Source of the DNA: Flavobacterium palustre
Lineage (GTDB): Bacteria; Bacteroidota; Bacteroidia; Flavobacteriales; Flavobacteriaceae
DNA length: 64,000 nt
NCBI RefSeq assembly: GCF_014639535.1
Contig: NZ_BMGA01000001.1
Location: forward strand, 62,001 to 126,000
Reading direction: 5' to 3'
In this document: positions 8,284 to 29,661 of the stretch, one piece after another
Layout of the letters: each line of letters opens with the position of its first letter
How positions within the stretch are numbered: position 1 is the first letter of the stretch
Program-made: the position numbers and the translations under genes
The notes under the pieces: generated by a model
What the model was told of the DNA's origin: nothing
What the model saw: the letters and a program-made list of their open reading frames with translations, nothing else
Databases searched by the model: none

Positions 8284-11200
8284 ATGAAACCAAAACTCAA
8301 AGTAATATTATTGCTTTTAACAGCAATAATAACACAGCTTTCTTATTCACAGGAAAGACTCGTAACTGGAACTGTTTCAGACAACTCAGGAATGCCACTA
8401 CCCGGAGTTAGCATCTTAGTAAAAGGAACACAAACCAGCACTCAGTCTGATTTTGATGGTAAATTCAACATTAAAGTTGCACCTACACAAACTTTAATTT
8501 TTAGCTACATTGGTATGAAAACCCAAGAAATACCAGCTAATTCAACAACAATTTCAGTAAAACTTTTAGACGATTCCATTGAACTGGAGGGAGTAGTTAT
8601 TACTGCTTTTGGGATAAAAAGAAATCCTAAAGACCTCGGTTACTCTGTAAGTTCCATAAAAACAGAAGAAATCACAGAAAACTCCGAACCTGATTTAATA
8701 CGTTCCCTATCAGGAAAAGTAGCCGGTGTTAACGTAAATATTTCCAGCGGAGTTGCCGGTGCAGCCAATCAAATTACAATAAGAGGGACTAATACTTTTA
8801 CAGGAAACACCCAACCACTTATTGTTGTTGACGGAGTAACCTACAACAACACCTCCGTTACCACATCCAATCAATCTACCGGAGGTGGAGCATACGAATC
8901 GGCATTATCAACTTTAGACCCAAACGATATTGCTTCTATAAACGTTCTTAAAAGTGCCGCTGCATCAGCATTATATGGTTCAAGAGCAGTAAACGGTGTT
9001 ATCGTTATCACAACGAAGTCAGGTTCTGCCAAATCAGCTAAAACAAATAAATCCACCGTAACTTTTGGTTCAGGTATTTATTTCGAAAATATTGCCAATC
9101 TTCCCGATTATCAAAACAAATACGGAGCAGGCGCTAATTTTAAATACAGCGAAGGATCAAACGGATCTTGGGGACCTGCTTTTGGAAAAGCCGGAGTCCT
9201 TTACAATTTAAATGATGACGGAACCATTCCTACCTGGGCAACTGTATTAGCTGTATCCCCTGAATTAGGGCCAACTGTTCCTTACAAAGCAAAACCAAAC
9301 AATGTAAAAGATTTGTTCCGAACAGGACTTGTTGCTGACAACACTTTAGGCTTTAACTACACCGGCCAAGACGGTAGTTTTAACACCACAATTTCTAACC
9401 TGAACCAAAACGGATACATACCTTACAATACCTACGACAGAACTTCAATTTCTATTGGTGGTAATTTCAACCTTTCGGATAAATTTACCATTGGAGGCAA
9501 CATGAGTTTTTCGGACACCAAACAAATCGGAGGATTCTTTGGAGACGACTCTTTTATTGACGAAGCAGTAGCTCCTTCATTTGCCAGAACTCTGTTTATA
9601 GCCAGAAACTGGGACTTAAACCTGCCTTATGAAAACCCAGAAACAGGAGAATCAGTTACGCCAAACGGTCGCCAATTTGACCACCCTCTATGGTCCTGGA
9701 AACACGATAAAATCATTACCAACACTAACAGAACAGTTGCAGGTGTTAATATGAATTACAAATTCAACGAACACATTTCGGCTTCGTATCGTATGGGTTT
9801 CAACAAATACGATTTAAACCGTCAGGAAATTAGAGACATAGGATCATTGGCTTACGGCGGAATTGGAGTATTAAAAACGGAGAATTTCAATAACGAAGAC
9901 ATTGAATCTACCTTATTAATCAATTTTAACTACCAATTATCAAAAAACATTGGCCTGACAGCCATACTGGGAAATAACATTCTGCAAACAAAAACAAGCA
10001 GGACAAGTTATTTAGGAAAAGAATTTATTGTGCCTGATATATTTAATATGAGAAACACTAAAAACATTTCCAGCCTTTATGATGAAGGCGATACAAAAAG
10101 AAATGCCGGGATATTTGCCGACCTTACTTTCTCTTACAAAGATTTCTTCTTCATAAACGCAACAGGACGTAATGATTTCTCTTCTACACTTCCTGTTAAC
10201 AACAACTCTTATTTTTATCCATCTGTAAGTGGCTCACTTATTGTAACCGATGCTTTAAAAATAGACAGCAAAGTCCTAACATTTGCTAAACTTCGCGGGG
10301 GCTATGCCAAAGTAGGTAATGATGCCGCAGCCGAATTTTTAAATTCAACTTTATTAATCGGAGACGCATACAATGGGAATCCCGTAATTGGCAACAACAC
10401 TTTTTTGTCTGATCAACAAATAAAACCTGAGTTCACTCAGGAATATGAAATAGGTGCTGATTTAGAATTCTACAACAGACGCATTGCACTGGATTTTAGT
10501 TTGTACAAAAAAAGAACCACAGACTTAATTACCGAAGTTAGTGTTCCTGTTTCCAGTGGTTTTCTATCTTACAACACCAATGTAGGTGAAATGCAAAATA
10601 AAGGTATAGAAGTAGGATTAACCCTTGTACCCATTAAAACAGAAGATTTCAAATGGACACTTTATTCTACTTTTACCAAAAACGAAAATAAAGTAACCAA
10701 AATTTCAGATGGTCTGGACAGAAGCCCAATAGACATTGACCAGGTAGGCTACATTATCCAGGGAGAAGCTTTTGGCACCTTTTACGGAACCAAATTTGCC
10801 AGAGATAACGAAGGAAATTATTTAATTGATCCTTCAAGCGGAGGTATTCTGGCAGCTACCGAAACAGGGATCATTGGCGATCCAAATGCTGATTTCAAAA
10901 TGAGTTTCATCAATACTTTTAAATATAAAAATTTAAGCTTAAGAACTCAATTTGACTGGAAACAAGGAGGCGATATTCATTCTTCAACTATAGAAAGTCT
11001 GTTAGGAAGAGGGGTAACAAGAGATACCGAAGACAGAGAACATACTTATATAATACCTGGTTATTTAGGAAATACGGATGGTACGCCTATATTAGACAGT
11101 AACGATCAAAAAATTCCTAATACGACTCAAATCACAATGAATGATTTGTATTTTTCTCCAGGAACAAACGGAAATACATTTGCAATCAACAGTGTTGATG

Positions 11201-11472
11201 AAGCTAATGTTTATGACGGAACTGTATTTAGATTAAGAGAAATCAGCCTAACCTACGATTTCCCTTCACAATTATTAAAAAAATCATTTTTAGACAAAGC
11301 AAGCTTAAGCATATTAGGCAGTAATCTTTGGTATTTTGCTCCAAACGTACCAAAATACACCAATTTTGATCCTGAAGTAACTAGTTTTGGCTCAAACAGA
11401 CTGCAAGGAGTTGAAGTCACATCAGCACCTACAGCAAAAAGACTAGGACTAAAATTAAACTTAACCTTCTAA
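8284..11472 (+). CDS. SusC/RagA-type TonB-dependent outer-membrane receptor
   Basis: A 1062-residue outer-membrane protein. In order: signal peptide (about 1-22, ending SYSQ); a carboxypeptidase-regulatory-like beta domain (about 25-95, GTVSDNSGMPLPGVSILVKGT); a TonB-box-like strand EGVVITAFG (102-110); a plug domain with IRGT, VVDG and the SusC signature ALYGSRAVNGVIVITTK (about 115-245); then a large beta-barrel ending in LKLNLTF with the usual terminal aromatic residue. It imports a nutrient through the outer membrane with TonB energy, using the SusD-like lipoprotein of the next gene as lid. No glycoside hydrolase or regulator is adjacent, so the substrate cannot be deduced; peptides are as likely as glycans. 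It diverges from the rpsL operon across a 252-base gap in which I see no good promoter for this direction. Confidence 0.95.
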   Translation: MKPKLKVILLLLTAIITQLSYSQERLVTGTVSDNSGMPLPGVSILVKGTQTSTQSDFDGKFNIKVAPTQTLIFSYIGMKTQEIPANSTTISVKLLDDSIELEGVVITAFGIKRNPKDLGYSVSSIKTEEITENSEPDLIRSLSGKVAGVNVNISSGVAGAANQITIRGTNTFTGNTQPLIVVDGVTYNNTSVTTSNQSTGGGAYESALSTLDPNDIASINVLKSAAASALYGSRAVNGVIVITTKSGSAKSAKTNKSTVTFGSGIYFENIANLPDYQNKYGAGANFKYSEGSNGSWGPAFGKAGVLYNLNDDGTIPTWATVLAVSPELGPTVPYKAKPNNVKDLFRTGLVADNTLGFNYTGQDGSFNTTISNLNQNGYIPYNTYDRTSISIGGNFNLSDKFTIGGNMSFSDTKQIGGFFGDDSFIDEAVAPSFARTLFIARNWDLNLPYENPETGESVTPNGRQFDHPLWSWKHDKIITNTNRTVAGVNMNYKFNEHISASYRMGFNKYDLNRQEIRDIGSLAYGGIGVLKTENFNNEDIESTLLINFNYQLSKNIGLTAILGNNILQTKTSRTSYLGKEFIVPDIFNMRNTKNISSLYDEGDTKRNAGIFADLTFSYKDFFFINATGRNDFSSTLPVNNNSYFYPSVSGSLIVTDALKIDSKVLTFAKLRGGYAKVGNDAAAEFLNSTLLIGDAYNGNPVIGNNTFLSDQQIKPEFTQEYEIGADLEFYNRRIALDFSLYKKRTTDLITEVSVPVSSGFLSYNTNVGEMQNKGIEVGLTLVPIKTEDFKWTLYSTFTKNENKVTKISDGLDRSPIDIDQVGYIIQGEAFGTFYGTKFARDNEGNYLIDPSSGGILAATETGIIGDPNADFKMSFINTFKYKNLSLRTQFDWKQGGDIHSSTIESLLGRGVTRDTEDREHTYIIPGYLGNTDGTPILDSNDQKIPNTTQITMNDLYFSPGTNGNTFAINSVDEANVYDGTVFRLREISLTYDFPSQLLKKSFLDKASLSILGSNLWYFAPNVPKYTNFDPEVTSFGSNRLQGVEVTSAPTAKRLGLKLNLTF

Positions 11473-11482
11473 AAAGAACATC

Positions 11483-13186
11483 ATGAAACTACTAATAAAA
11501 TCAAAACAAAATACCTCAAAAATTGTGGTATTATTGAGTTCGATACTCTTTTTAAGTTGTAATGACTACATGGATGTTAACACCGACAAAGACAACCCAA
11601 CAACTGCTCCATTGAGTTTCTTACTTACAGGCACACAGGTAGATCTAAATAATAACACTAACTTTTTAGACAACTCCGGCAGCGTCTTGCAAGTTTACAC
11701 ACACCAAATGACAGCAAGGGAAGAACAAGATCAATATGGAGCCAAAGTAAACAATGTTGGTCTTCAAAATGACTGGCAAAATCTTTACTTAACACTTACA
11801 AACATAGAAACCCTTATTGCTCAGGCTCAGGAATCGGAAGATTTGATTTATGTAGGAATTGCGCAAATGCAAAAGGTCTATTTGATGTCGGTTGCTGTAG
11901 ATCTATGGGGAGATGTTCCTTATTCAGAAGCCAATAAACTTAAAAACGGTATTATAGCTCCTAAATTTGATAATCAAAAGGAAATTTATAATTCCTTATT
12001 TGAATTAATTGAAACCGCTAAAACAAATCTAAAAAGTGAACTCGGTGCAAAACCCAAAGCTGATGATTTATTCTATGGCGGAGATACCGAAAAATGGATT
12101 CGATTTGCTAATACCTTCAAATTAAAGCTCTACAATCAAACCCGCTTAACAGCCGACTTTGACCAAGAAGGATTTGACGCTTTAATTGCCGAAAACAACT
12201 TTTTCAAGTCTATTGATGATGATTTCGAATTCAAACACACTAAAAACATCTCACCAACAGATGAAAGAAATAAATTATTTTTAGAATCATATAATAGCAC
12301 TCAATTTGGTACATACATGAGTCCATGGTTCTATGAAATACTTATGGGAATGAATCCGAACATACACAATGACAATCCGGATCCACGAATTAAATATTAT
12401 TTCTACAACCAACTTGAAGCCGGAGAATACCCGGAACTGGCTGACACAGATACCGGCGACCCAAAAGCCGATTATTGGGATGCTACTACCGGATTTTTCA
12501 GCATCCGTTTTGGTAGTCAGGGTCCCTGGAGAGACTTTAGCACTGAAAATTCAAACACCTACCCGGGTATTTTTCCATGCGGAGGAAGATATGATGATGG
12601 AGAAGGAGAAACTATGGACGCTACAAAAGCAGGCGGTGTAGCACCTCACAGAATACTAACCTATGACGAGTTTTTATACATTCAGTCCGAATTAATTCAA
12701 GAAGGAAAACTCACAGGAAATGCCGCTGCAAAACTACAAGAAGCAATGGAAGCTAGTTTTGCTAAAGTGGACCAGGTAGTCGTAGTAGCTAATAGCGAGA
12801 CCAAACAAACAGGAATACCTGTACTTGTTGGCTCTAATGAAGTGGAGACTTTTATTAACAAAATCATTACCGAATTCAACGGTGGTAACGATGATAAAAA
12901 ATTGGAAATCATCATGACTCAAAAATGGGTTGCTACTTTTGGAGACCCAATGGATCAATATACTGATTATAGAAGAACTGGCTTCCCAATATTTGCAAAT
13001 CCTAATTCAACTACGCCAGAATATCAATTAGACAATGGCGATGAATATCCGTTAGTTGATTCCGAAACTGTTCTCAACACCGCATACCCACTTTCATTAT
13101 TCTGGCCGCAAAGCGAACTAAATGTAAATAAAAATGCTCCGGCACAAAAAATACCTGGAACATATAAAATCTTTTGGGATAATTAA
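11483..13186 (+). CDS. SusD-like nutrient-binding outer-membrane lipoprotein (SusD_2/RagB type)
   Basis: A 567-residue lipoprotein. The signal peptide ends in the lipobox LFLSC with the lipidated Cys at position 26, followed by NDYMDVNTDKDNPT, the typical start of the SusD_2-type proteins that partner SusC. The first part is helical with TPR-like character (IETLIAQAQES, YVGIAQMQKVYLMSVAVDLWGDVPYSEA); a mixed region follows and ends with the FWPQSELNVN segment. It should sit on the cell surface as the lid of the SusC barrel encoded 10 bases upstream. The substrate is unknown. Confidence 0.93.
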   Translation: MKLLIKSKQNTSKIVVLLSSILFLSCNDYMDVNTDKDNPTTAPLSFLLTGTQVDLNNNTNFLDNSGSVLQVYTHQMTAREEQDQYGAKVNNVGLQNDWQNLYLTLTNIETLIAQAQESEDLIYVGIAQMQKVYLMSVAVDLWGDVPYSEANKLKNGIIAPKFDNQKEIYNSLFELIETAKTNLKSELGAKPKADDLFYGGDTEKWIRFANTFKLKLYNQTRLTADFDQEGFDALIAENNFFKSIDDDFEFKHTKNISPTDERNKLFLESYNSTQFGTYMSPWFYEILMGMNPNIHNDNPDPRIKYYFYNQLEAGEYPELADTDTGDPKADYWDATTGFFSIRFGSQGPWRDFSTENSNTYPGIFPCGGRYDDGEGETMDATKAGGVAPHRILTYDEFLYIQSELIQEGKLTGNAAAKLQEAMEASFAKVDQVVVVANSETKQTGIPVLVGSNEVETFINKIITEFNGGNDDKKLEIIMTQKWVATFGDPMDQYTDYRRTGFPIFANPNSTTPEYQLDNGDEYPLVDSETVLNTAYPLSLFWPQSELNVNKNAPAQKIPGTYKIFWDN

Positions 13187-23028: not shown

Positions 23029-26000
23029 ATGAAAAAGCTTTTCTTACTTCTGGTATTTATTTCAGCATCCGTTTTTGCGCAAAACTTCCAAAAAAACTGG
23101 AATAAAGTTATAACCTATGAAAAAGAAGGAAAAATAAAATCGGCTGGTAAACTAGTCGATGAAATATACAAAAAAGCAGTTAGTCAAAAAAATGAACCTC
23201 AAATTATAAAATGTTTTTTCTATCAATCAAAATACCTGCAAGTACTTGATGAAAATGCACAAACCAAAATCATCAACAATATTAAAACGGATATTAACCT
23301 AGTCTCAATTCCTTCAAAAGCGATTTTGAATTTAGTCTATACCAAATGTCTGAATGATTATTTTAACAGAAACAATCACACTATTCGAAACCGAACAAAT
23401 ACCTTAAGCATAAATGAGCAATTTATGACTTGGACGGAAAACGATTTTACTACTGAAATTAATTCAGCCTTAAATCAGACATTAACTAACCAAAACATCT
23501 TAAAAAACACTCCCTTAATAAATTACGAAGCTGTTTTTGATTATTTCAATGAAAAAAAATTCAAAACTGAAAATTTATTTGAGTATTTATTACAAGAAAA
23601 CATTAGTTTTTGCACTTCAAAAATAGAGCGATGGAGCATTAAAAAAGAGGATTTCATTGCTTTACAAAATGATTTATGGGGAAATTCAGAAGCTTTTACA
23701 AAAATCAATTTCGATTTTGTTACTGACAAAAATCTACAAAAAACGTTACTATTATTACAAAAAAAGGAGCTAAACAATTCTTCTTTAGAAAACCAACTGG
23801 AGCGCATTTTATTTTGTAAAAACTATTTAACGGAGAATAATGAGACTCTCTTAAAGACTTTAAATCGTTTACAAAAACAAAGCAAAGACAGTCTTATAAT
23901 ACAAAAAATTCAACTAGAAAAAGCGGCAATTTTAAGCAGTTTAGCATCAAAAGAAACGCATCCTGATTACAATACACAAGCAATAACAATATTAGACAGT
24001 ATCATTGGTGTAAATAATTTTTCTAATTCTTACAAACTCGCCATTCAAAAAAAACAAGTTATTGATTCAAAATCTCTGAATATTCAAATGCTTAAACAAA
24101 GCTATTCTGACGAAAACACCAGAGCTCTAATTAGTTACAAAAACATAAATCAAGTCAACATTTCATTTTACAAAATCAATCAAAACCAATTAGAATTATT
24201 TAGAAAACAACAATTTATAAAAGACAGCGTAGTTGATATAATTATCCAAAAGCAAAACCCTGTAGCAACTAAAAACTATAGTCTTTTAAACAAAAAAGAT
24301 TATTTTGGATACACTACTGAAGTTGTTTTACCCCAACTCAAAACAGGCAGTTATTTAGTTTATTTTGAAAGTGATTCGGATATAAAAGATAAAAAAGCAT
24401 TCGCTTACGAAACCATTACTGTTTCTAATATTGCTGTTTTAGCTACTCAAAAAGATACTATCCGCTATTTCCAAGTCTCAGATCGAAAAACTGGAAAACC
24501 ATTGGAAAAAGTAAATATTAAGCTGGAAAATACAACAATACAAACTGATGCAAATGGTACAGCATCTTATTCCAAAGAGAAAAACCGAAACAATTATGAA
24601 ACAATTTTATTTATTAAAGAACAGGATAGCCTTTCAGTTTCGAATTATTATGTAGCTTACAATAATGAATACAATCCGACAATTCAAGAAAAAGATAAAG
24701 GAAGAGTTGAGTTCTATTTAGACCGTGCAATTTATCGTCCTGGACAAACGGTCTATTACAAAGGAATTGCTTTTCAGAAAAAAGACAATGTAAACTCAAT
24801 TGTGGCAAAAACTTCTTTTAAAATTATAGTAAAAGATGTCAACCACAATACTTTTAAAGAATTTGAAATTACCACGAATGAATTTGGTTCTTTTTCAGGA
24901 GAATTTGTATTGCCAAAAACGGGTTTAACGGGTAATTTCAGAATAGAAGCTTATGAACCTGATGACTATGAAAAAGATATAGTTTACAATAAAGATATTG
25001 ACGAACATCCGTTTTGGGATCAGATAACTTTTCAAAATTCTCAAATTAGTTTTAAAGTCGAAGAATACAAACGTCCAAAATTTGAAGTTCGTTTTGACCC
25101 TGTAACCCAATCTTATCAGGTCAATCAAGATGTAACTGTTAATGGTATTGCTAAAGCCTTTGCAGGAAGTTCCATCAGTGATGCTACCGTTAAATATGAA
25201 GTCAGCATTTATACGTATGAATTTACGAATAGAGGTTATCATCTAAGAAACGGAAAGTCTAAAAATATTACAATTGCAGAAACCAGGACAGATGCTTCCG
25301 GGAAATTCAAAATTGATTTTAAAGCGGAACCGGTTGAAAACTTCAAAAAAGAAAACTTACCTATTTTCGAATATCACATTAAAGCCTCAGTAACCGATAT
25401 TAATGGCGAAACACATTCTGCAAATTCGACTGTAAAAGTAGGTTATCATGATTTGATTCTGGGCACAACTATTCCTCAACAAATAGAAACCAAAAATAAA
25501 AACGAAATTATTCCTTCAAGTACTAATCTCAACGGTAATTTTTTAGCAACCAAAGGCGAAATTAAAATTTATTTTATTAGACCTTTAATCGATAAATTCA
25601 AACCAAGAATTTGGGAAAAACCTGAAATTGACGGAATTTCTAATGAAGAATTTGAACGATTATTTCCTTACGAAAACAATATAAAAACAGTTGCCGACAG
25701 CCTGACGCAAACATTAGTTTTTTCTAAAAAAATAGATACGCAAACAGATAAAAATCTACTGCTTGATTTTATTTCAAATTATAAATCCGGAGATTATAAG
25801 GTAGTTTTTTCGGCAAAAGATGCTTTCGACAACAACATTACAACTCAATCTAATTTCCGCTTAATACAAAGTAATGACAAATACAATTTAAGCAAATTAT
25901 TTACAGCAACACAAATTAATGCAAATCCAAAAAAAGATGGTTTTGTTCTTATAAAACTACTTTCGGTTATCCCGGAACTTTATATCAATGCCACAGGAAA

Positions 26001-29000
26001 TTATAAACAAAAAACATTTTTTGAAGATACTTTTCATTTGCAAAATAACGAAACTCTTATCAAAATTCCTTTGCTGAAAGAATTTGAAAATGCAATCCAA
26101 ATAAGCTTCCAAAGTATTTTTGAAAACAATCCTTTTAGAGATGGAATCGAAATCTTTTTGGAAAAAGAGAAAGAAGGTAAACTGGAATTTACTGTTGAAA
26201 ATTTTAGAAACAAAATACAACCAGGAAACAATGAGAACTGGTCGTTTCAGCTGAAAGCTAATGATACTAAACAAGAATCCGAAGTTTTAGCTTCAATGTA
26301 CGACAGTTCTTTAGATCAATTCACAAAAATAAATTGGAATGGTTTAGCATTTCATGAATATAATTACAATTATGGCAATTACAAATCGGCACTAGGTTTC
26401 GACAAGTTATATAGTACTATTGGAAATTTAAACAAACCTTCATACCTACCAACAATAACTAGTGAGAATACCCAATTAATTTGGTTTGGGTTTAATTTCA
26501 ATAATTCAAATCCATATCACCAACAATATGAATACCTAAAACAACTGAATAAAAAAACAAAAAAGCCAGCCAATGCTACAATGATTTCGGGAGTAGTCAC
26601 AGATCAATATGGAGCTCCATTTGCAGGGGCAATTATTGCAATAAAAGGAACTCAAAGAACCATAACATCTAATCATAGTGGTTACTTTGAAATTGAAGCT
26701 GCTCCAAACGAAATAATAGTTTTCTCCACTATAGGTTATAAAACTCAGGAAATTCTTGTTGGAAATAAAAAAATCATACAAATAAGTTTAGGCGAAGTAG
26801 ACGATGTACTCAATGAAGTTATTGTAGTAGGTTATGGAACACAAAGGAAACAAAATTTAACCGGTGCAGTAACTACAATACAAGGAGATCCTGATGCTAT
26901 TATAAGTGTAGCTCCAGCAGGTTCCGGACCAAGAAACAATAAAAATAAAAAAAACGGAGTAGTACTGGAAGAAGTTGACGATGCGGTTTATAGTACTGCT
27001 GGAATAGATCTTCAATTAGAACAAGCTTTACAAGGAAAAGTAGCTGGTTTACAAATTAGAGGTAGTTCTTCTATTTTAGGCAACAATAACGCGTTATATG
27101 TAATTGATGGAGAAATTGCCTCAGAAGAAATCTTTAAAACGCTAAATCCTGCTGATGTTGTTTCTATGGATGTTTTAAAAGATTCCAAAGCCACTGCTCT
27201 TTACGGAAGCAAAGGCGAAAATGGTGTCATCATTATCACAACAAAAAAATCTTTGGAAGCCTTAACACAAGTAACAGCAAGAAAAAATCTCTCAGAAACG
27301 GCTTTCTTCTATCCTCATCTAAAAACAGACTCAAAAGGAAAAATCTCTTTCAATTTTACCTCACCTGAAGCCTTAACTTCTTGGAAACTGCGTTTATTGG
27401 CACATAACAAAAATGCCGTTTCGACTTATTTAGAAAAAAGCGTCATAACTCAAAAAGAACTTATGCTTTTACCTAATTTCCCTCGTTTTCTTAGAGAAAA
27501 AGATACAATTGTTATTAGTGCCAAAATTGCTAATATGAGCAATCAATCCAAAACAGGAATTGCTCAATTACAGTTTTTTGATGCCACGACTATGCAGCCT
27601 ATCGACAATAAAATGCTTAACGTAAAAAATATTCGAAATTTTAATATTACAGCTTTCGGAAATACAACAGCGACATGGAAAATTACTATTCCCGAAGGAT
27701 TACAAGGCGTGCAATATCAAATTGTAGCAAAAGCTGGAAATTATTCAGATGGCGAGGAAAACATACTTCCCGTTTTAACTAATAATATGCTCGTTACTGA
27801 AAGTATTCCTGTTTGGGTGCGAGAAAATTCTAAGAAACAATACACATTTGAAAATCTAAAAAATAATAATTCTACCACATTACGCAATCATCAGTTTACA
27901 CTAGAATACACTTCAAACCCTACCTGGCTAGCCATTCAATCCTTACCGTATTTAATGGAATACGAGCATGAATGTGCCGAACAGACTTTTGCTCGCTTTT
28001 ATGCCAATGCCTTAGCTGGCGAAATTATCAATAGTAATCCAAAAATTGCTACTATTTTTGAATCATGGAAAGCAAAAGACAAATATAAATTAGAAGAAAA
28101 CGAAGAATTAAAATCGATTATTCTTGCCGAAACACCTTGGTTAAATGATACTAAAAGTGAAGCCGAAAAGAAGCAAAAACTGGCTCTGTTATTTGATCTA
28201 GAAAAAATGAAAAACTCGCAAGAAGCTACTTTTGAAAAGTTGAAACAAAAGCAAAGTGCTTCAGGAGGATTTGCCTGGTTTGATGGCGACAGAGAAAACG
28301 AATACATTAGCCGTCATATTCTGGCAGGTTTAGGGCATTTATCAAAACTAATCCGTAATAAAGAAACGGATACAAAAGTTGCTGAAATTTCTAAAAAAGG
28401 AATTCCGTTTTTAGATGATAAATTCTTAAAATACCATAAAGCCAGAACTAAAAATCTAAAGTCAACTGACAAACTAATTTGGATTAATCCAAATACCGAT
28501 TTACATTATTTGTACACACGTAGTTTCTATTTAAAAAATTACCCCCTTTCGGATACTTTGAAAAAAGTAAGCAAATTATATCTTGAAATCGCTAAAAAAG
28601 ATTGGCTAAACTATTCGCTTTACGAAAAAGGAATGGCAGCTTTAGCATTACATCGTTTTGGAGAAACTGCTTCAGCTAAGAAAATTGTCGAAAGTTTAAA
28701 AGAAACAGCTTCAAACAATGAAGACTGGGGAATGCATTGGATTGCAAACAAATCAGGCTGGTATTGGTATCAGGCTCCTATTGAAATCCAAGCCTTACTT
28801 ATAGAAGCTTTCGCAGAAATTACAAACGACAACAAATCTGTTGATGCAATGAAAGTTTGGTTATTAAAAAACAAACAAACTAAAAACTGGCCAACAACTA
28901 AGGCAACTACCGAAGCTGTATATGCTTTACTAATGCAAGGTACAGACTGGTTAAGTGTAAAAGACAATACTATTTTCAAAATTGGAAATGAAAAAATATT

Positions 29001-29610
29001 GACCAAAAAATTAGCTGAGAACGAAAAAGAAGCCGAAACGGGTTATTTAAAACTCAATTGGAAAGCTGATGAAATAAAAAAAGAAATGGCAACGATAACG
29101 ATTCAAAATAAATCAAAAGTTCCCGGATACGGTGGAGTATATTGGCAATATTTTGAAGATTTGGATAAAATAAAAACCGATAATTCAAATGCACTTTCTG
29201 TATCAAAAGAATTATATCTGAAGAAAAACAATGACAAGGGAGAAGAATTACAAAAAATCACGAATGGAAATCGGCTAAAAATTGGAGATTTGGTTACAGT
29301 AAGATTAATTATAACTGCCAAAGAAAACATGGAATTTGTTCACTTAAAAGACCTACGAGCTTCCTGTTTTGAACCTGTCGATGTGTTATCTTCTTACGAT
29401 TATAAAAATGGTATTGCCTTTTATAAAAGTTCAAAAGATGCCGCTACCCATTTCTTTTTTGGCAACATCAACAAAGGCACTTATGTCATAGAATATGATA
29501 TAAGAGTGAACAACAGTGGAGATTTCTCAAATGGGATAACGACTATACAAAGTATGTATGCTCCCGAATTTTCAAGTCATACTAAAGGAATCAGAGTTCA
29601 GGTGAAATAA
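23029..29610 (+). CDS. Alpha-2-macroglobulin family protein with inserted SusC-type CarboxypepD_reg and TonB-plug module
   Basis: A 2193-residue exported protein. In order: signal peptide (1-18, ending VFAQ, no lipobox); a helical N-terminal region to about 330; macroglobulin-like beta domains with the MG2 motif DRAIYRPGQTVYYKG (from 565). Next comes an insertion at 1185-1407 made of a carboxypeptidase-regulatory domain (ISGVVTDQYGAPFAGAIIAIKG), a TonB-box-like strand NEVIVVGYGT (1262-1271) and a compact SusC plug with ALYGSKGENGVIIITTKK. The A2M core follows (ETAFFYPHLKTDSKG, from about 1423), then the thioester domain with an intact CAEQ (1649-1652), and a C-terminal beta domain. Bacterial macroglobulins trap proteases in the cell envelope after cleavage of a bait region; the insertion sits where the bait region would be expected. 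There is no beta-barrel. The frame is continuous, so this is not a frameshift or assembly join of two genes. Confidence 0.93.
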   Translation: MKKLFLLLVFISASVFAQNFQKNWNKVITYEKEGKIKSAGKLVDEIYKKAVSQKNEPQIIKCFFYQSKYLQVLDENAQTKIINNIKTDINLVSIPSKAILNLVYTKCLNDYFNRNNHTIRNRTNTLSINEQFMTWTENDFTTEINSALNQTLTNQNILKNTPLINYEAVFDYFNEKKFKTENLFEYLLQENISFCTSKIERWSIKKEDFIALQNDLWGNSEAFTKINFDFVTDKNLQKTLLLLQKKELNNSSLENQLERILFCKNYLTENNETLLKTLNRLQKQSKDSLIIQKIQLEKAAILSSLASKETHPDYNTQAITILDSIIGVNNFSNSYKLAIQKKQVIDSKSLNIQMLKQSYSDENTRALISYKNINQVNISFYKINQNQLELFRKQQFIKDSVVDIIIQKQNPVATKNYSLLNKKDYFGYTTEVVLPQLKTGSYLVYFESDSDIKDKKAFAYETITVSNIAVLATQKDTIRYFQVSDRKTGKPLEKVNIKLENTTIQTDANGTASYSKEKNRNNYETILFIKEQDSLSVSNYYVAYNNEYNPTIQEKDKGRVEFYLDRAIYRPGQTVYYKGIAFQKKDNVNSIVAKTSFKIIVKDVNHNTFKEFEITTNEFGSFSGEFVLPKTGLTGNFRIEAYEPDDYEKDIVYNKDIDEHPFWDQITFQNSQISFKVEEYKRPKFEVRFDPVTQSYQVNQDVTVNGIAKAFAGSSISDATVKYEVSIYTYEFTNRGYHLRNGKSKNITIAETRTDASGKFKIDFKAEPVENFKKENLPIFEYHIKASVTDINGETHSANSTVKVGYHDLILGTTIPQQIETKNKNEIIPSSTNLNGNFLATKGEIKIYFIRPLIDKFKPRIWEKPEIDGISNEEFERLFPYENNIKTVADSLTQTLVFSKKIDTQTDKNLLLDFISNYKSGDYKVVFSAKDAFDNNITTQSNFRLIQSNDKYNLSKLFTATQINANPKKDGFVLIKLLSVIPELYINATGNYKQKTFFEDTFHLQNNETLIKIPLLKEFENAIQISFQSIFENNPFRDGIEIFLEKEKEGKLEFTVENFRNKIQPGNNENWSFQLKANDTKQESEVLASMYDSSLDQFTKINWNGLAFHEYNYNYGNYKSALGFDKLYSTIGNLNKPSYLPTITSENTQLIWFGFNFNNSNPYHQQYEYLKQLNKKTKKPANATMISGVVTDQYGAPFAGAIIAIKGTQRTITSNHSGYFEIEAAPNEIIVFSTIGYKTQEILVGNKKIIQISLGEVDDVLNEVIVVGYGTQRKQNLTGAVTTIQGDPDAIISVAPAGSGPRNNKNKKNGVVLEEVDDAVYSTAGIDLQLEQALQGKVAGLQIRGSSSILGNNNALYVIDGEIASEEIFKTLNPADVVSMDVLKDSKATALYGSKGENGVIIITTKKSLEALTQVTARKNLSETAFFYPHLKTDSKGKISFNFTSPEALTSWKLRLLAHNKNAVSTYLEKSVITQKELMLLPNFPRFLREKDTIVISAKIANMSNQSKTGIAQLQFFDATTMQPIDNKMLNVKNIRNFNITAFGNTTATWKITIPEGLQGVQYQIVAKAGNYSDGEENILPVLTNNMLVTESIPVWVRENSKKQYTFENLKNNNSTTLRNHQFTLEYTSNPTWLAIQSLPYLMEYEHECAEQTFARFYANALAGEIINSNPKIATIFESWKAKDKYKLEENEELKSIILAETPWLNDTKSEAEKKQKLALLFDLEKMKNSQEATFEKLKQKQSASGGFAWFDGDRENEYISRHILAGLGHLSKLIRNKETDTKVAEISKKGIPFLDDKFLKYHKARTKNLKSTDKLIWINPNTDLHYLYTRSFYLKNYPLSDTLKKVSKLYLEIAKKDWLNYSLYEKGMAALALHRFGETASAKKIVESLKETASNNEDWGMHWIANKSGWYWYQAPIEIQALLIEAFAEITNDNKSVDAMKVWLLKNKQTKNWPTTKATTEAVYALLMQGTDWLSVKDNTIFKIGNEKILTKKLAENEKEAETGYLKLNWKADEIKKEMATITIQNKSKVPGYGGVYWQYFEDLDKIKTDNSNALSVSKELYLKKNNDKGEELQKITNGNRLKIGDLVTVRLIITAKENMEFVHLKDLRASCFEPVDVLSSYDYKNGIAFYKSSKDAATHFFFGNINKGTYVIEYDIRVNNSGDFSNGITTIQSMYAPEFSSHTKGIRVQVK

Positions 29611-29628
29611 AAATATCAATATACAAAA

Positions 29629-29661
29629 AACCCTTTCAGAATTTTGAACTCTGAAAGGGTT
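29629..29661 (-). terminator. Terminator between the macroglobulin and obg
   Basis: AACCCTTTCAGA (29629-29640) pairs with TCTGAAAGGGTT (29650-29661), a 12-bp stem with a 9-base loop. On the minus strand it runs into a T-run, so it mainly ends the obg transcript. It can also slow the convergent macroglobulin transcript. Confidence 0.75.

Follow-up and report, generated by a model that had tools for sequence, protein, structure and literature searches.

A 64,000-nucleotide stretch of the Flavobacterium palustre genome, which we refer to as the window, contained the gene for an alpha-2-macroglobulin (A2M) of 2193 residues (positions 23029..29610, + strand, from the open reading frame translation). 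The bait segment of this protein included the N-terminal part of a SusC-type transporter. Based on sequence comparisons, we propose that the bait imitates the N-termini of transporters and, through its TonB box, docks the macroglobulin trap at TonB, where the bait is cut; we give this reading a probability of about 0.42. Comparisons among relatives showed that the transporter-derived module was recurrent and very labile and that the TonB box was its commonest element.

Transporter-derived module in the bait segment

The SusC-derived part of the macroglobulin spanned residues 1184 to 1407 and contained an N-terminal extension (NTE), a TonB box, a damaged plug, and a SusC signature. An initial annotation made from the sequence had placed a module of this kind at residues 1185 to 1407, and matches in Pfam, NCBIfam, and the PDB confirmed the open reading frame, the module, and its coordinates. 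Specifically, the SusC/RagA model TIGR04056 covered residues 1186 to 1422 (profile positions 3 to 220 of 981) with 185.4 bits and an E value of 2e-54, a score at which the 2193-residue protein missed the whole-protein cut-off of 368.25 bits. The best match to residues 1184 to 1421 among PDB sequences was the SusC chain 8aa4_A (E value of 3e-27). The NTE, a CarboxypepD_reg-like domain of the SusC type, was assigned to residues 1186 to 1266 (26584..26826, +) with Pfam CarbopepD_reg_2.

The TonB box LNEVIVVGYG was located at residues 1261 to 1270 (26809..26838, +) with a matrix of SusC boxes from the same genome and by comparison with the Ton box of Bt1763 (PMC7782687). Residues 1261 to 1268 (LNEVIVVG) scored 20.3 bits against the matrix, in agreement with the TonB-box-like NEVIVVGYGT noted earlier. 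When the genome was searched at the DNA level for the pattern E-V-(V/I/M)-V-x-G-(Y/F), 22 matches were found, of which 20 were beside a Plug domain, one was in this A2M, and one was in an anti-sigma-like gene; the same pattern read backwards gave 3 matches. In the SusC protein Bt1763 (PMC7782687), the NTE has an Ig-like fold, the TonB box is flexible and follows the NTE, and mutants in the box no longer grow on the substrate, like a SusD deletion.

The C-terminal half of a plug (ALYVIDGE...GVIIIT) was recognized at residues 1356 to 1405 (27094..27243, +) with NCBIfam and the AlphaFold model described below, and the SusC/RagA signature at residues 1376 to 1406 (27154..27246, +) scored above the cut-off of NCBIfam TIGR04057 (48.6 versus 46.2 bits). 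Pfam Plug (PF07715) had no match in the 2193-residue protein, and inspection of the N-terminal half of the plug by eye revealed a foreign-looking stretch of about 40 residues (...GPRNNKNKKNGV...). The signature in the initial annotation was upheld, and the plug appeared to be damaged, with an N-terminal half of very low model confidence. As had also been observed, the A2M core followed directly after the module, the CAEQ thioester motif was present in the sequence at residues 1649 to 1652 (27973..27984, +), and no outer-membrane beta-barrel family of Pfam or NCBIfam was found in the protein.

The bait segment itself corresponded to residues 1099 to 1417 (26323..27279, +), between the anchors SLDQF and RxNLxETAFF, which were conserved in relatives. 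In relatives that lacked the module, a hypervariable linker was located between the conserved ..SLDxF / WFGF and RxNxxETAFF anchors, directly before the A2M domain. Because conserved anchors flanked a hypervariable linker in relatives, the A2M domain followed, and the fold neighbors of the model included ECAM and Salmonella A2M, the idea that the module occupies the bait position of the macroglobulin was supported at the sequence level. The initial annotation had put the module at this position as well. The residue-level correspondence to ECAM was partly drawn by eye because the direct hhalign alignment was weak; the part of the protein before the bait aligned with a probability of 5.4% (E value of 0.0071), and the alignment ended at ECAM residue 902, shortly before the ECAM bait residues 923 to 942. 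These bait residues (Arg923 to Leu942) have no density in the cleaved structure, according to PMC4498604. Arg923 was the R of ..WQAFFGQKRYG in translated yfhM, and WQAFFG was matched to WFGF by eye. A profile search of PDB sequences returned nothing for ECAM.

Residues 560 to 1700 were modeled with AlphaFold as a single chain, using 41 sequences (mean predicted local distance difference test score [pLDDT] of 75.4; predicted template modeling score of 0.57). The strands of the NTE (pLDDT of about 77 to 87) formed a separate unit beside a stretch of 94 residues, 1259 to 1352 (26803..27084, +), that held the TonB box and the N-terminal half of the plug. The block pLDDT of this stretch was 25 to 34, which suggests that it may be disordered. 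The C-terminal half of the plug was modeled as a small alpha/beta unit (block pLDDT of 64 to 80; strand-strand-helix-strand-helix-strand) that ran into the A2M core. Residues 1111 to 1153, before WFGF, also had a pLDDT below 50 and formed a second possible cleavage stretch. The PDB fold neighbors of the model were complement C3/C5, ECAM, A2ML1, CD109, and Salmonella A2M, with strong E values and low TM-scores (0.31 to 0.39, normalized to query length). In the case of the ECAM and Salmonella A2M entries 5a42, 4ziq, and 4u48, E values ranged from 1e-27 to 2e-29 and query-normalized TM-scores from 0.31 to 0.35.

The remaining domains of the protein were MG2 at residues 562 to 646 (24712..24966, +; Pfam PF01835), the A2M domain after the bait at residues 1424 to 1509 (27298..27555, +; Pfam PF00207), and bMG10 at residues 2056 to 2180 (29194..29568, +; Pfam PF17973), all above the Pfam cut-offs; bMG3 remained below its cut-off in this protein (18.2 versus 34.9 bits). 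The N-terminus (MKKLFLLLVFISASVFAQN) looked like a plain Sec signal by eye, and no lipobox was seen, so the trap is probably periplasmic as judged from its signal. The genome contained one A2M match, together with 53 Plug, 63 NTE-type, and 9 TonB_C matches, and the nearest named relatives were from Flavobacterium. The genes that flanked the A2M gene were a glycosyltransferase-like gene and obg. A SusC protein with NTE, plug, and barrel and its SusD-like partner, a normal transporter, were encoded at positions 8284-13186 of the window, about 10 kb upstream of the A2M gene. With such neighbors and such a distance, the suggestion in the initial annotation that the trap might dock with a SusC/SusD complex was not sustained. 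A terminator-like stem of 15 pairs was present at positions 29629-29661 of the window, in the gap where the A2M and obg genes converge; the region had two such sites, no excess over the mean of 3.0 in shuffles.

Distribution of the module and retention of its motifs

A query that spanned the junction gave matches in 96 of 149 genomes of the class at an E value of 0.001 (two A2M lineages together) and in 199 of 397 genomes of the family at an E value of 1e-30. This recurrence ruled out a single-strain accident, and with it the rare one-strain recombination that the initial annotation had allowed for. The family sample consisted of the best 150 rows by score (two genomes were represented twice), and 139 of these were classified: 34 had the NTE and plug, 21 the NTE, 6 the plug, and 78 only a linker. 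A TonB box of at least 12 bits was present in 30/34, 19/21, 0/6, and 43/78 of these rows, respectively.

For the remaining counts, 273 rows were retained, and thinning at 98.5% core identity left 253. Rows were left out when the downstream anchor (11 of 258 loci) or the upstream anchor (10 more) was absent; among loci L288 to L334, 10 of 47 were left out because the downstream anchor was absent, and absence of the upstream anchor removed a total of 11 rows. Loci L336 to L354 were read by eye and stood outside all counts. Named loci were the best 80 of 578 confirmed, so close relatives were over-represented. In the 253 deduplicated rows, the box was found in 51/60 baits with NTE and plug, 24/27 with the NTE, 2/23 with the plug, and 61/143 linkers; after thinning to 80% core identity, the corresponding counts were 32/37, 5/6, 0/7, and 22/69. 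Among the 219 deduplicated rows assigned to the order of the window (a few of which, such as L117 and L143, carry other group names), 60 had NTE and plug, 27 the NTE, and 22 the plug (109 together); 136 had a TonB box, and 168 had some SusC-derived element. Bait class changed 53 times on a core tree, compared with a mean of 99.6 in 30 label shuffles; the tree statistics were rough, as they came from FastTree with about 265 columns.

The thioester cysteine was kept in 27/27 rows with the NTE, 56/60 with NTE and plug, 23/23 with the plug, and 119/143 with linkers. A simple script assigned plain Sec signals to 157 of the 177 long rows, a lipobox to 2, and no decided class to 18. In family f2 of the same order (L298 and L318 to L334), which we take to be possibly Weeksellaceae, the thioester was lost in all 16 deduplicated rows, and a box was present in the short bait in 10 of the 16. 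The thioester motif was also gone in L336 and L337, which were outside this count. The plug-only baits of L068, L070, L072, L074, L077, L081, and L308 (Flavobacterium or the same genus) shared a SETIKGDPDA-like lead-in, some of them had an EEDNxVYNTA-like motif, and the bait of the window held strings similar to these (TIQGDPDAI..EEVDDAVYSTAG). A second, distant A2M lineage (L299 to L306; about 20 to 29% identical to the query and mostly about 1800 to 2000 residues long) occurred in many Bacteroidia genomes.

The baits as a whole were poorly conserved. The mean column identity in an alignment of 119 representative baits was 14%, and the majority consensus after WFGF.F showed an isolated Y, the string L.EVV....G, and an isolated V. 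In pairs with 90 to 98.5% core identity, baits were 42% identical (87 pairs), boxes 78% (26 pairs in which both had a box), and the preceding 200 residues 79%. Strong box matches were concentrated in the bait: at 12 bits, 61 of the 143 linkers without NTE or plug had a box, compared with 2/143 for the rest of the same proteins (i.e., the remainder of the available part, as many loci contain only part of the protein) and a shuffle rate of 0.002. The counts were 65 versus 8 at 10 bits and 70 versus 74 at 8 bits, so only strong matches discriminated. The matrix was made from the search expression, and one of its octamers is probably no box; a hand-checked list gave an identical 61/143. The information content of 22 representative box-selected linkers peaked at the box, and the commonest letters at +8 and +9, which lie outside the search matrix, were Tyr (10/22) and Gly (12/22).

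In 27 rows, the nonsynonymous difference was 0.27 in the box, 0.55 at +8/+9, and 0.66 to 0.67 further out, a contrast that is inflated because the rows were chosen by matrix; the synonymous difference was 0.69 to 0.75 in the box and further out and 0.63 to 0.75 over all of these positions. Two plug motifs were kept as well. At 12 bits, LQGKVAGVxI was found in 38/143 linkers and 4/143 remainders and IRGxxS in 22/143 linkers and 0/143 remainders (shuffles, 0.004 for each); at 8 bits, the counts were 45 versus 21 and 44 versus 53, respectively. Co-occurrence of the box and LQGKVAG (counts of 20, 41, 10, and 72) had a p value of 0.004. In SusC, the box comes first and is followed by LQGKVAG and then IRG. 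Among linkers in which the box reached 12 bits and the other motif 10 bits, LQGKVAG preceded the box in 21/24 and IRG preceded it in 19/23, counts that were not independent because rows were related to one another, as in all box and motif counts, and some IRG matches overlapped the box or the LQGKVAG match. Mere deletion remnants were an insufficient explanation of the linkers, since the motif order was permuted and synonymous sites were saturated. These results also showed that "SusC-type receptor module", the term of the initial annotation, was too strong because the plug was often broken or missing; what persisted was the TonB box, together with short motifs of the plug.

Origin of the pieces and other proteins that carry them

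Pfam matches in the 119 baits (E values up to 0.01) were the NTE in 44 and Plug in 38, with six families found once each; the remaining matches, to CooC_C (12), TTR_TEN1-4 (6), and Big_1 (2), were likely cross matches among sandwich folds. NCBIfam assigned SusC to 57 of the 119 baits. The model of the gliding protein GldJ also matched 2 of the 119 segments (best E value of 9.9e-11). A random supply of domains to the bait was not favored, as the Pfam content was mostly NTE and Plug. A fresh capture of SusC in each lineage within the family was not favored either because the modules were closer to other A2M modules. Specifically, modules matched other A2M modules better than 15 SusC proteins of the F. 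palustre genome for the NTE in 87/87 and for the plug in 80/83, a comparison that is biased because A2M modules far outnumbered the SusC proteins, all of which came from one genome.

Matches further afield indicated that other lineages had apparently captured transporter pieces on their own. In L353, from another family of the class, 27 of 32 bait residues were as in the start of a SusC-type plug from its own genome (score of 164, compared with a shuffled mean of 39.2 and maximum of 52). A bait peptide of L340 was 58% identical over 48 residues (E value of 2.4e-12) to a Plug-bearing frame of 1262 residues in its own genome. The peptide matched frames of 1235 to 1262 residues in all six genomes searched, and all of these frames had a Plug match; one frame of this transporter type, which is about 1250 residues long, began like an NTE and by eye contained motifs of the TonB box and the plug. 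When baits of seven genomes were compared with the 30 top-scoring plugs, L353 and L340 reached the smallest possible p value (0.005) and L344 reached 0.015, and the baits of L341, L349, L342, and L014 had no significant match (p values of 0.13 to 0.36). The best plug for both L340 and L344 came from another genome, and the best plugs of their own genomes scored 45 and 49. As far as these sequence matches go, they showed that the pieces derive from at least two TBDT (TonB-dependent transporter) families.

The same kinds of pieces were found in other proteins that lack a barrel. At C5:138939-142601 of the same genome (L335:940-4602), an ECF (extracytoplasmic function) sigma factor gene was followed by genes for an anti-sigma-like protein and then a VWA/YfbK protein. 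The anti-sigma-like protein, so named for its gene place and a membrane-like stretch (Pfam gives only the NTE), had an NTE, a box by eye, and a degenerate plug, and the VWA/YfbK protein had an NTE and a box by eye. No barrel family was found in either protein. Within the genus, a relative of this anti-sigma-like protein (L400) had lost the NTE and box and kept the C-terminal half of the plug, a mosaic like those of the A2Ms. Orthologues were found in 2 of 149 genomes, including its own, and were too divergent for use.

Readings of the bait and their significance

In the reading that we rank first, a periplasmic macroglobulin trap would have a bait built from N-terminal parts of the cell's TBDTs. 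The exposed box would bind the C-terminal domain of TonB, and the trap would thereby sit at TonB under working transporters. Some large foreign polypeptides, colicins for example, cross the outer membrane by this route. An arriving protease would cut the flexible stretch around the box (we propose residues 1259 to 1352), after which the ring would close and the thioester would bind the protease. Where relatives have a shorter bait, docking would be the work of the box by itself; in those with the whole module, the NTE and half-plug may add docking specificity or may just space the bait. Docking was ranked first because TonB is the known periplasmic partner of the TonB box, and retention of the box in linkers that had neither NTE nor plug made it more likely. 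In addition, family f2 often kept the box without the thioester, which suits docking better than a decoy for a covalent trap. Docking also fits the position of the box in the low-confidence stretch, the low nonsynonymous difference of the box, the nine TonB_C matches of the genome, and the presence of NTE and box in the anti-sigma-like and VWA proteins.

Several observations counted against docking. A SusC-type box was found in just 2 of 33 linkers from other orders, and 82 of the 143 linkers had no box at 12 bits; at 8 bits, the rest of the proteins had matches as often as the linkers. Positions +8 and +9 were under little codon constraint (ratio of nonsynonymous to synonymous difference of 0.87). 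The box was found by matrix, so its internal conservation was partly built in, and the rows were related. The very low pLDDT of residues 1259 to 1352 may reflect poor alignment there, not disorder. Docking alone was opposed mainly by two facts, the occurrence of plug-only baits and the retention of plug motifs. Plug-only baits, just 2/23 of which had a box, were 12 of 32 rows among the matches listed and had cores 78 to 86% identical to that of the window, and docking at TonB leaves the kept LQGKVAG and IRG motifs unexplained.

Both facts fit the idea that the bait mimics transporter N-termini and plugs because a protease, either from outside or of the cell itself, attacks exactly these, so that cutting of the copy in the trap captures the protease. 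We rank such a substrate decoy as a close second to docking, although it is less likely than not; the two can both hold. A decoy would account for the plug-only baits and for the LQGKVAG and IRG motifs kept besides the box. The motif order unlike that of SusC would mean that peptides rather than a fold seem to matter, but the IRG overlaps and related rows weaken the order counts. The TBDT family that is used seems to differ among lineages, as seen in the SusC fragment of L353 and the plug piece of L340, and the thioester was kept in 106 of the 110 rows with NTE and/or plug. The main fact against a decoy alone was that the box was retained without the thioester (10 of the 16 f2 rows) and in proteins that are not traps, as in the anti-sigma-like and VWA proteins with NTE and box. 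We also know of no periplasmic protease that attacks TBDT N-termini, which counts against a decoy.

It is improbable that the bait simply tolerates anything flexible and that pieces of common secreted TBDT genes drift in and out with no specific function. The 53 Plug matches in the genome would provide a ready supply, and the 53 class changes show how labile the segment is. This idea is at odds with a Pfam content that was mostly NTE and Plug, with a box retained at low nonsynonymous difference where synonymous sites were saturated, and with motifs that were permuted yet recurrent. Least likely is a release of signal, in which two cuts would free a fragment that carries the NTE and the TonB box; the target of this fragment would be TonB or a sigma/anti-sigma system. 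The analogy is to complement C3/C5, which have an anaphylatoxin domain at about the place of the bait and were among the best PDB neighbors, besides ECAM and A2ML1. The separate NTE unit beside the low-confidence stretch of the model and the anti-sigma-like protein with the same pieces would fit such a role, but the NTE was missing in 166 of the 253 deduplicated rows.

The window protein resembled bacterial macroglobulins such as ECAM/YfhM and Salmonella A2M in its chain of macroglobulin (MG) domains, its bait before the A2M domain, and its CxEQ thioester; it differed in that no lipobox was seen by eye and no pbpC gene was adjacent, whereas yfhM adjoins pbpC. The module had the NTE, TonB box, C-terminal half of the plug, and SusC signature arranged as in SusC/RagA transporters, but it had a broken plug and no barrel, was located inside another protein, and had no SusD beside it. 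Complement C3/C4/C5 belong to the same superfamily, as the fold neighbors indicated, and have a domain near the bait position; in these eukaryotic proteins, however, that domain is an anaphylatoxin and not a transporter piece. Bacteriocins with a TonB box, such as colicins, are likewise proteins other than transporters and have the box in a flexible part, but they are imported toxins, whereas the window protein is probably a resident periplasmic trap. The integrated decoys of plant nucleotide-binding leucine-rich repeat (NLR) proteins, which place a copy of an attacked protein within a defense protein, are similar under the decoy reading only, and the proteins are unrelated. We found no description of a macroglobulin with a transporter-derived bait in the literature, in a search that left subscription papers, preprints, and some spellings outside; database annotations of an A2M with a SusC piece may well exist.

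To our knowledge, the targets of bacterial macroglobulins and the matching of bait to protease are largely open. The bait described here has a recognizable origin and a recurrent motif of a known partner, TonB, which makes its role directly testable, and the 253 deduplicated homologues with and without NTE, plug, box, and thioester provide a natural comparison set. If docking at TonB through the box is true, protease defense would be linked to the motor of nutrient uptake, and an added kind of TonB client would exist. If the decoy reading is true, it implies a protease, as yet unknown, that attacks TBDTs. More broadly, we tentatively suggest, while regarding it as doubtful, that barrel-less TBDT pieces (NTE, TonB box, and half-plugs) serve Bacteroidota as a portable tag for docking or as a decoy in the periplasm, that this tag is the bait in macroglobulin traps and wires the trap to TonB, and that a tag of this kind is also present in the anti-sigma-like and VWA proteins of the same genome. 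If this is true, TonB would have a class of clients distinct from both transporters and bacteriocins, and protease defense would be tied to nutrient uptake.
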